A program made the translations under genes and the position numbers. Under the pieces are notes generated by a model, which worked only from the letters and a program-made list of their open reading frames with translations, was not told the origin of the DNA and ran no database searches. From Marispirochaeta aestuarii (GTDB lineage: Bacteria; Spirochaetota; Spirochaetia; JC444; Marispirochaetaceae), in NCBI RefSeq assembly GCF_002087085.1, contig NZ_MWQY01000001.1:1-64000 (forward strand): DNA of 64,000 nt, given 5' to 3'. Position 1 is the first letter of the stretch, and each line of letters begins with the position of its first letter. Positions 55,653 to 59,338 of the stretch are shown piece after piece.

Positions 55653-56747
55653 ATGCAAGAATCGGATCTTATCGGAATCCCGGAGGATTCAATCTCTACA
55701 CCTGCACTGATTGTGGATGCGGATATTCTTGAAGCCAACATTGAAAAGATGCAAAGCTATCTGTCGGAAAAAGGCGTATCCCTGAGGGCCCATGCCAAAA
55801 CCCACAAGTCCCCCTATATCGGACAGATTCAGATGAAGACAGGAGCTATTGGTCTCTGTTGCGCCACGCTTGCCGAAGCGGAGGCAATGGTTCAAGGAGG
55901 ACTCAACAACATCCTTATAACCAGCCAGGTGGCAGAAGCTGATAAACTGCAGCGCCTCGCTTCTATTGCGGCGGATGCGGATATCAGTATAGCCGCAGAC
56001 TGCAGGGAAAATATAGCTGAGCTTTCAGAGGCTGCCTTGTCCCGGGGCTCCACCATCGGCATTGTTATCGAGGTTGATGTGGGTATGGGGCGCTGCGGAG
56101 TACGGTCTGCCGGCGAAGCTGTGGCTCTTGCAGACGAGACTGTTGCGCGGGACGGCCTCAGATTCAGAGGGCTTATGGGATACGAAGGACACGCGGTCTT
56201 TATCGGCGACAGAACCGACAGAAGGAGAACCGGGCTTGCGGCAAATCATCTGCTTATGGAGAGCGTGAATGCCGTGAGGGCACGAGGTATCCCCGTGGAG
56301 ATTGTAAGCGCTGCGGGAACCGGAACCTACGATATCGCTGCCGGGATGGAAGGAATAACAGAAATTCAGGCCGGTTCCTATATCTTCATGGATCTTGCCT
56401 ACGAGAAACTGGGACTGCCCTTTGAAATTTCCCTGACGGTTCTCTCCACGGTAATCAGTCGCCCGGATCAGAAAACCGTAGTCCTGGACTGCGGTATGAA
56501 GTCAATATCCGTTGAACGGGAGATGCCCCGCGCCCGCGGATATGACGGTATGGAGGTTTTTAAACTCGCAGAGGAACATGCCCTGGCCCGCGTCGATCCT
56601 TCCGGGAAATCGCCCCTGAGAGGTGAGAAGGTCTCCCTGATTCCGAGCCACTGCTGTACCACTGTCAATCTTCATGACCGTATCTTCCTTGTACGGAACC
56701 GGCACGTCGAAGCTGTGTTGCCCGTTAGCGCGCGGGGAGTTCACTAA
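55653..56747 (+). CDS. D-threonine aldolase/D-serine dehydratase-like PLP enzyme
   Basis: A 364-aa fold-type III (alanine racemase-like) protein: TPALIVDADILEANI, the PLP-lysine segment RAHAKTHKSP (about residue 51), EVDVGMGRCGV, GYEGHAV, and the C-terminal metal site IPSHCCTTVNLHDRI. The His-Cys pattern is closer to eukaryotic-type D-serine dehydratase (DSD1), while the overall layout also fits D-threonine aldolase. Reaction: cleavage or dehydration of a D-beta-hydroxy amino acid. AGGAG ten bases upstream. It is tail-to-tail with the GerMN gene, overlapping by four bases. Confidence 0.83.
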   Translation: MQESDLIGIPEDSISTPALIVDADILEANIEKMQSYLSEKGVSLRAHAKTHKSPYIGQIQMKTGAIGLCCATLAEAEAMVQGGLNNILITSQVAEADKLQRLASIAADADISIAADCRENIAELSEAALSRGSTIGIVIEVDVGMGRCGVRSAGEAVALADETVARDGLRFRGLMGYEGHAVFIGDRTDRRRTGLAANHLLMESVNAVRARGIPVEIVSAAGTGTYDIAAGMEGITEIQAGSYIFMDLAYEKLGLPFEISLTVLSTVISRPDQKTVVLDCGMKSISVEREMPRARGYDGMEVFKLAEEHALARVDPSGKSPLRGEKVSLIPSHCCTTVNLHDRIFLVRNRHVEAVLPVSARGVH

Positions 56748-57520
56748 AGATCGTCTCTTCCCAGGGGCTTTCCTATATACAGGCCTTCCGGGTTGAGGTA
56801 CTGCTGTTTTACACCTTCAATCAGGAACTGGACCCGGTCTACAGTGGGAAACTCCGTGGCAGTGTAAATGAGCTGTTTAAGCTGCAGGACAGCTCCTTCA
56901 TAGCCAAAGGAGTTAAAGCGAAATGCCTCGGTCATATCGATGAAGGCGACACCGTCTTTTACGGCGACGGAGCGTATCGTTGCGTCCTGGGGAACGAGAC
57001 TGAGGAGGTTCTGGTTCAGTTCCGAGGCGGAAGGACCGTCAAGCAGGGCTTTCAGGGTGTCCGTCAGGGGGGAGTCGGTATAATAAATCGGGCGGACAAC
57101 CCTCCTCAGCTCTCCGGATGTTCCGTCAAGAAACACGAAGTAGAGGGTGGCTCTGCGAAGTCTCTTTGTCTGAGTTTCCGCTGCAGGGGGAGTATCCTCT
57201 TCCTGCGGCGCAGATTCCCGGGGTACAAGTTCGAGGGCCACAAAGGAGTCATCTTCATCCACCGCTTCTTCTCCTGCGGTTTCGGGTTCCCTCTGTTCAG
57301 ATTGAGGTTCCTCTGAAGGCGGCACCGCCGGCTCTTCAGTTTCCGGCTCATCAGTCTTTATTTCCGGCTTTTCCTGAACAGTACTCAGAACATCGATAAA
57401 ACCCGTTGCTTCCAGAACCTGTTCAATACGGCTGCGGTTAAAGAGGAATATTACTAGTATAAGCAGGATCAGGGCGATCCAGAACAGACATCCAAGGGAC
57501 GCTTTTCGTTTTCTCTTCAT
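56744..57520 (-). CDS. GerMN-domain membrane-anchored protein
   Basis: A 258-aa protein: basic start MKRKRKASLG, one membrane segment (CLFWIALILLILVIFLF, about 11-27), a long Glu/Pro-rich linker (about 45-125), then a GerMN domain (ATLYFVFLDGTSGELRRVVRPI, TLKALLDGPSASELNQNLLSLVP, VAFIDMTEAFRFNSFGYEG). GerMN domains occur in spore-germination and cell-wall-associated proteins; here an envelope role is likely but unknown. The start at 57520 lies six bases after a GATAAT element and has no Shine-Dalgarno sequence, so the mRNA may be leaderless. Confidence 0.83.
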   Translation of the reverse strand: MKRKRKASLGCLFWIALILLILVIFLFNRSRIEQVLEATGFIDVLSTVQEKPEIKTDEPETEEPAVPPSEEPQSEQREPETAGEEAVDEDDSFVALELVPRESAPQEEDTPPAAETQTKRLRRATLYFVFLDGTSGELRRVVRPIYYTDSPLTDTLKALLDGPSASELNQNLLSLVPQDATIRSVAVKDGVAFIDMTEAFRFNSFGYEGAVLQLKQLIYTATEFPTVDRVQFLIEGVKQQYLNPEGLYIGKPLGRDDL

Positions 57521-57551
57521 AGGCTCATTATCGACCACCAGTTTATGATAT

Positions 57552-57580
57552 TTGACAGTACCCTGAAAAGAGCGTATAGT
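57552..57580 (+). promoter_or_regulatory. ptsI promoter giving a nearly leaderless mRNA
   Basis: TTGACA (57552-57557), a 17-bp spacer and TATAGT (57575-57580). The ATG of ptsI is nine bases further on, so the predicted leader is about three nucleotides, with no room for a Shine-Dalgarno sequence. Confidence 0.75.
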
Positions 57581-57589
57581 GATCCCGGC

Positions 57590-59338
57590 ATGAGAGAGCT
57601 GACGGGTATTTCGGCATCTCCGGGTATCACGATCGGTACTGCTTTCCTGTACATCGACGACGCCTTCACAGTTCCACGCTATGATGTAGACGAGTCTGAT
57701 CTGGAACGGGAGTACGAGCGCTTCGAAGAAGCCTTGGAGAAGGCCACACAGGAAATCATAGAACTCAAGGATCAAACCTCATCTTCCGTGGGCGGTAACG
57801 AGAACAATTTTCTCGATGCCCATATCCTTATGATACAGGATCCGGATTTTGCCGATCAGATTAAACAAAACCTGAAAGGGAAAAAAAAGAACGTAGAGTG
57901 GATCCTGCAGCAGACTATTGAAGGCGTAATTAACAAGCTTTCAAGTTCCCAGGACAGTTATATAAGCGAACGCTCTATTGATCTCCATGATGTTTCCAAG
58001 CGTGTCCTGAATCATCTTATGTATCGCGAGCGGATTTCCCTGGCGGACCTTAGTGCGGAGGTTATTCTCGTAACTCACAACCTGCTGCCCTCGGACGCTC
58101 TGGCCATGAATACACGAAAGGTGAAGGGAATTGCCATGGATGCGGGAGGCAAGACCTCTCACACGGCTATTCTTGCCCGGGCCTTCGAGATCCCCGCGGT
58201 TCTGGGTCTCTCTGCTGTTACGAGTATTGCCCGGACCGGGGATACGATTATCATTGACGGAAACCGAGGCAAGGTAATCGTTGATCCCGATGAAGAGACC
58301 CTGAAGACCTACGAGGAGATTCTTCAGAAGTGGCAGCAGCGGGAGGTCCAGCTTGCAACCCTGAATCAGCTTCCCGCTGAAACCCAGGACGGCAAGCACA
58401 TCCTCCTGGGAGCAAATATTGAGGTCCCGGAAGAGACTGACGCGGTTATAGCCCATGGAGCAGACGGTATCGGCTTATTCCGTTCGGAGTTCCTTTTTAT
58501 GCAGCCCGGAGGTGTCTCTGACGAGGAGCAGCAGTACGAGGCTTATACCAGGGTTGTCAAGTCTGTGGAGGGAAAGCCTGTTACCATCAGGACCCTCGAT
58601 GTGGGGGGAGATAAAGCCATACCGGGTTTTGAACAGCACAGCGAGAAGAACCCCATCCTGGGCTGGCGGGCCGTCAGGTTCTGTTTTTCCCGCACCGATC
58701 TTTTTAAAATTCAGCTGCGTGCAATCCTGCGCGCTTCGGTGCACGGCGACCTCCGGATCATGTTTCCCATGATCTCCGGAGTGGAGGAGGTGGACCGTGC
58801 CCTGGAACTTCTTGAAGAGGCCAGGAGCGAATGTCGTGAGAAGGGCCAGCCTTTCAATGAAGATATCCCTGTGGGTATCATGATAGAGGTCCCTTCGGCG
58901 GCGCTGACATCGGACATTCTGGCCCGGAAGGTTGATTTTTTCTCCATAGGGACCAATGACCTTATTCAGTATACCATCGCCGTCGACCGGGGAAATGAGA
59001 GAGTCGCCTATCTCTATGAACCTTTTCACCCAGGGGTTTTGCGGTTGATTAAAATGGTTATAGATAATGCCCACAGCGCAGGAATCCCTGTGAATATGTG
59101 CGGTGAGATGGCGGGGGACCCCATCGCTACAGTAATTCTGCTGGGCATGGGCCTCGATGTTTTTAGTATGTCCTCCTTCAGCATTCCCGAGGTTAAGCAG
59201 ATCATTCGTTCGACTTCGATGATGGAAGCGGAAGAGCTGGTGGGGGAGATTATGGAAATGAAGTCGTATAGAGAAATTGACGAACATGTTCGCGGATGGA
59301 TGAATGCAGGATATAATCTCGAAGGCTACACCGGATAG
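57590..59338 (+). CDS. ptsI: Phosphotransferase system enzyme I
   Basis: A 582-aa enzyme I: it moves phosphate from PEP to HPr. The N-terminus MRELTGISASPGITIGTAFLY fits the family start, the active-site His lies in DAGGKTSHTAILARAFEIPAVLG (about residue 190), the PEP-binding signature is ADGIGLFRSEFLFM, and the C-terminal domain has DFFSIGTNDLIQYTIAVDRGNERVAYLY and the Cys loop NMCGEMAGDP. ptsH and EII genes are not adjacent. Divergent from the GerMN gene; its end overlaps der by 35 nt. Confidence 0.96.
   Translation: MRELTGISASPGITIGTAFLYIDDAFTVPRYDVDESDLEREYERFEEALEKATQEIIELKDQTSSSVGGNENNFLDAHILMIQDPDFADQIKQNLKGKKKNVEWILQQTIEGVINKLSSSQDSYISERSIDLHDVSKRVLNHLMYRERISLADLSAEVILVTHNLLPSDALAMNTRKVKGIAMDAGGKTSHTAILARAFEIPAVLGLSAVTSIARTGDTIIIDGNRGKVIVDPDEETLKTYEEILQKWQQREVQLATLNQLPAETQDGKHILLGANIEVPEETDAVIAHGADGIGLFRSEFLFMQPGGVSDEEQQYEAYTRVVKSVEGKPVTIRTLDVGGDKAIPGFEQHSEKNPILGWRAVRFCFSRTDLFKIQLRAILRASVHGDLRIMFPMISGVEEVDRALELLEEARSECREKGQPFNEDIPVGIMIEVPSAALTSDILARKVDFFSIGTNDLIQYTIAVDRGNERVAYLYEPFHPGVLRLIKMVIDNAHSAGIPVNMCGEMAGDPIATVILLGMGLDVFSMSSFSIPEVKQIIRSTSMMEAEELVGEIMEMKSYREIDEHVRGWMNAGYNLEGYTG

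Follow-up and report, generated by a model that had tools for sequence, protein, structure and literature searches.

The ptsI-GerMN locus

In the window, the whole 64,000-nucleotide stretch of Marispirochaeta DNA analysed here, the sequence read directly places two divergent genes 69 bases apart. The first is ptsI (57590-59338, plus strand), whose 582-aa product, PTS enzyme I, is a sugar-transport enzyme (Pfam PF05524, PF00391 and PF02896; TIGR01417). Its neighbour (56744-57520, minus strand) encodes a 258-aa protein with one N-terminal membrane segment and a GerMN (Germane) domain identified with Pfam (PF10646); it is the single PF10646 gene in the Marispirochaeta genome. This arrangement is common in Spirochaetia, where a GerMN gene adjoins ptsI divergently in 110 of 125 ptsI loci.

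The initial annotation had proposed the two genes as a candidate leaderless pair, arguing that both lack a Shine-Dalgarno sequence and that both start codons agree with the N-termini of their families. These observations hold. No Shine-Dalgarno sequence was seen within 20 nt of either ATG. In the ptsI product, residues 5-128 align with PEP-utilisers_N profile positions 1-121 and residues 4-566 with TIGR01417 positions 1-563. Much of the class shares the GerMN N-terminus, in which M and a few basic residues precede GCLFWIALILL. A three-codon frame, ATG-AGC-CTA-TGA, also overlaps the GerMN start (57518-57529, minus strand); it is present only in Marispirochaeta and its closest relative and is probably fortuitous.

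A sigma70-type promoter abutting ptsI across Spirochaetia

Immediately upstream of ptsI, the plus strand carries a sigma70-type -35 element, TTGACA (57552-57557, within TTTGACA at 57551-57557), followed after a 17-nt spacer by the -10 element TATAGT (57575-57580), which ends 9 nt before the ATG at 57590. Together the two hexamers match TTGACA/TATAAT at 11 of 12 positions with a spacer inside the 16-18 nt range, identifying a sigma70 promoter, and a search of the whole Marispirochaeta genome with TTTGACA-N14..20-TATAGT gave just two sites. Projecting from the -10 element, transcription would start at about 57587 (range about 57585-57590), leaving about 3 nt of 5' UTR, as the initial annotation had estimated from the same promoter.

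We asked how widely this placement is shared by collecting 125 orthologues of ptsI, drawn from 43 Spirochaetia families, and reading the DNA upstream of each; sequences of the same family are not independent. A sigma70-type promoter whose -10 element ends 5-11 nt before the ptsI ATG (most often 9) was found in 114 of the 125 orthologues and in 38 of the 43 families. The same test was passed by only 25 of 2490 other ATGs in these loci, and we therefore rejected chance as the cause of the placement. The elements themselves are well kept among the 114 promoter-bearing orthologues, 88 having TTGACA and 59 TATAGT (most of the rest have TATNNT), and an SD-like 4-mer lies upstream of ptsI in only five of them.

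The promoter could nevertheless be real but minor, with the main transcripts of both genes starting further upstream and carrying ordinary leaders. In keeping with this, another ATG lies in frame upstream of Marispirochaeta ptsI, at 57545, and the stretch tested is free of in-frame stops in 41 of 113 orthologues. However, a protein extended upstream would have to be encoded across the promoter itself, again without a Shine-Dalgarno sequence, and in the other 72 of 113 orthologues the frame is closed by a stop between promoter region and ATG, which rules out a longer ptsI as the general case; on these grounds we rejected the start at 57545. Moreover, the distance from promoter to ATG is held across families, whereas no such conservation is seen in the sequence immediately preceding the -35 element. 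We consider distant main start sites very unlikely, and the conserved promoter-to-ATG distance strongly supports the prediction that ptsI is leaderless across the class.

Two further observations concern this promoter. One genome, G024, has a TTTGACA-AAAA-TATATT block that resembles the ptsI promoter but sits about 50-90 nt upstream of ptsI, further out than in all its relatives, so that ptsI has apparently acquired a leader there. In addition, the spacer contains a conserved AAAA (57566-57569, plus strand; about -21 to -18; 0.57-1.06 bits per column in 35 families), and a CG just before the -10 element (57573-57574, plus strand) is likewise conserved in about 35 families. Both exceed what a sigma70 promoter needs, and both are also seen in families that lack the sigma factor FliA (sigma28).

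A sigma28-type element upstream of GerMN

GATAAT occupies 57532-57527 of the minus strand and is followed by GAGCCT and then by the GerMN ATG (57520-57518), so that the hexamer ends exactly six bases before the start codon, as the initial annotation had noted in reading it as a housekeeping -10 element. If this reading were right, both genes would be leaderless and both would be transcribed with sigma70. GATAAT does match TATAAT at five of six positions and lies at the right distance from the ATG, but the sequence 17 nt upstream, TCAAAT, matches a sigma70 -35 element at only two of six. We found a better fit in an overlapping element, GTCGATAA (57528-57535, minus strand), which matches the sigma28 -10 type GCCGATAA at seven of eight positions and is preceded at 15 nt by CAAA (57551-57554, minus strand), giving CAAA-N15-GTCGATAA in the window. 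The candidate -35 element in Marispirochaeta is thus CAAA and not TAAA, which relatives match at two to four of four positions. Counting from the -10 element, GerMN transcription would start at 57520-57521, with a 5' UTR of about 0-2 nt.

Comparison with relatives separates the two readings. Upstream of GerMN, (G/A)CCGATA recurs across the class, with CAAA, TCAA, TAAA or a less exact match at a distance of 14-16 nt upstream. The base after it can be any of the four; the final T needed by sigma70 is thus often lost while CCGAT is kept. A sigma28-like element lies on the GerMN strand in 65 of 110 loci, as against counts of 3, 6 and 8 of 110 for the three controls. With no sigma70 -35 element and this pattern of conservation, we rejected GATAAT as a sigma70 -10 element, and transcription of both genes by sigma70 seems improbable; the GerMN element is apparently best read as a sigma28/FliA promoter.

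Its position relative to the start codon is equally constrained. We anchored the GerMN starts of 72 orthologues on the conserved protein N-terminus (GCLFWIALIL and variants) and found that (C/T)CGATA ends 7-12 nt before the anchored start in 45 of 46 matches; N(C/T)CGATA is so placed in 45 of the 72 orthologues. Few Shine-Dalgarno-like strings occur at these starts. The conserved distance from element to start strongly supports the prediction that GerMN, too, is leaderless across the class.

Marispirochaeta encodes FliA (TIGR02479 match on contig C14 of its genome, 57201-57878; 302 bits against a cut-off of 189.6), and TAAA-N15/16-ACCGA(T/A) stands upstream of two of its flagellin genes. When the genome was scanned with a plain sigma28 pattern, nine sites were returned against three for a control pattern, a difference that is not informative alone. 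Among relatives, the GerMN motif is present in 61 of 93 FliA-bearing genomes and in 4 of 17 without FliA (Fisher p=0.0023, uncorrected for shared ancestry); some of the FliA absences fall in incomplete genomes, and the 32 FliA-bearing genomes without the strict motif include near-misses such as CCGAA or GCCGACA. In four families (f3, f4, f8 and f17), all examined members of which lack a FliA match, (G/A)CCGATA was found in none of 11 loci, yet GerMN beside ptsI and the ptsI promoter are retained. The GCLFWIALIL N-terminus of GerMN has also diverged or is absent in these families.

The motif might instead be the site of an unknown regulator, since many motif-bearing genomes have a weak -35 element that matches TAAA at only two or three of four positions. 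A regulatory site would not readily account for the fixed distance between (G/A)CCGATA and the start codon or for its absence from the FliA-less families, and the sequence fits the published spirochaete sigma28 -10 element (PMC9481697), making this alternative highly improbable. That element belongs to flaB2 of Treponema denticola, whose sigma28 promoter has the -10 sequence CCGATAA and a start site mapped by RACE 124 bp before the start codon (PMC9481697). The two promoters have in common a CCGATA-type -10 element and a short A-rich -35 element; by contrast, GerMN is predicted to be almost leader-free and is not a known flagellar gene.

Two predicted leaderless mRNAs from one compact region

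Taken together, these data suggest that a compact divergent promoter gives rise to two leaderless mRNAs, a reading to which we assign a probability of roughly 80%, with start sites and sigma usage deduced from sequence. RNA polymerase carrying sigma70 would transcribe ptsI to the right from TTTGACA-17-TATAGT, with a start about 0-5 nt ahead of the ATG, and polymerase carrying FliA (sigma28) would transcribe GerMN to the left from CAAA-15-GTCGATAA, its start lying at the ATG or no more than about 2 nt from it. Because there is no room for a Shine-Dalgarno sequence, the 70S ribosome probably binds both AUGs as start codons at the 5' end of the mRNA, a mode of binding established for other leaderless mRNAs. 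Of the earlier proposal, the leaderless reading stands, upheld by the class-wide promoter-to-ATG distances, but the housekeeping -10 element assigned to GerMN does not.

In Marispirochaeta the sigma28-type CAAA (57554-57551, minus strand) is the antisense of TTTG in the ptsI TTTGACA; the two -35 elements thus share bases on opposite strands, and the two promoters physically overlap. Where such bases are shared, the two polymerases would be expected to exclude each other. This overlap occurs in 18 of 65 motif-bearing loci and extends to several other families; with so few it is one version of the locus and not its usual state, and we rejected it as a general feature. That the locus is an ancestral, class-wide switch, in which sigma28 and sigma70 polymerases compete on shared -35 bases to produce the two leaderless mRNAs, tying a PTS enzyme to motility control, with the leaderless state selected, is doubtful.

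The two genes are not alone in their predicted lack of leaders. In a sample of 464 kb and 360 genes of the Marispirochaeta genome, in which all candidate starts were scored, strong sigma70 promoters cluster 5-11 nt before ATG or GTG (14, whereas the four 7-nt bins that follow hold 2-3 each). Leaderless placement is also kept in relatives for two of these genes, alaS (23 of 28) and parA (18 of 26), so we rejected the idea that ptsI is uniquely leaderless. The clustering within one genome and the conservation at alaS and parA indicate that leaderless starts are a steady habit of the class, in agreement with published counts for Spirochaetes (PMC3160421) and Leptospira (PMC5243855). To call the two genes a candidate pair understated the case, since the arrangement is class-wide and leaderless starts are general in these genomes.

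Counts of leaderless genes are usually made per genome; here individual genes can be traced as leaderless across a whole class, from which it can be argued that the leaderless state is selected. The locus also supplies start-codon evidence of a kind missed by annotation that relies on Shine-Dalgarno sequences, and it leads us to predict that the motility (FliA) regulon of spirochaetes includes a membrane GerMN protein.

A literature search for GerMN in spirochetes or leaderless Treponema start sites found no paper. Among the closest precedents are the 'TA-led' leaderless genes, already recorded for Spirochaetes (6 of 18 genomes) at an estimated average of 3.9% of genes in the six (Zheng et al. 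2011, PMC3160421). As in those genes, where the -10 element precedes the start codon by about 10-12 nt, ptsI and GerMN have a -10 element close to the start and lack a Shine-Dalgarno sequence; unlike them, they represent one locus kept leaderless class-wide in two divergent genes, and the sigma28-type -10 element of GerMN would not be targeted by a TANNNT search. Leptospira interrogans is another spirochaete with leaderless transcripts, about 440 of its mRNAs having a 5' UTR under 10 nt by dRNA-seq; it is more distant and has mapped ends, whereas our start sites come from promoter geometry, and the text of that paper does not mention ptsI (PMC5243855). We predict that ptsI and GerMN are a well-conserved, two-sigma example of this known leaderless kind. 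Other genes in the Marispirochaeta sample, likely including gatC, hflX and one for an ABC transporter ATPase, similarly have a strong promoter that ends 5-11 nt before an ATG that lacks a Shine-Dalgarno sequence.
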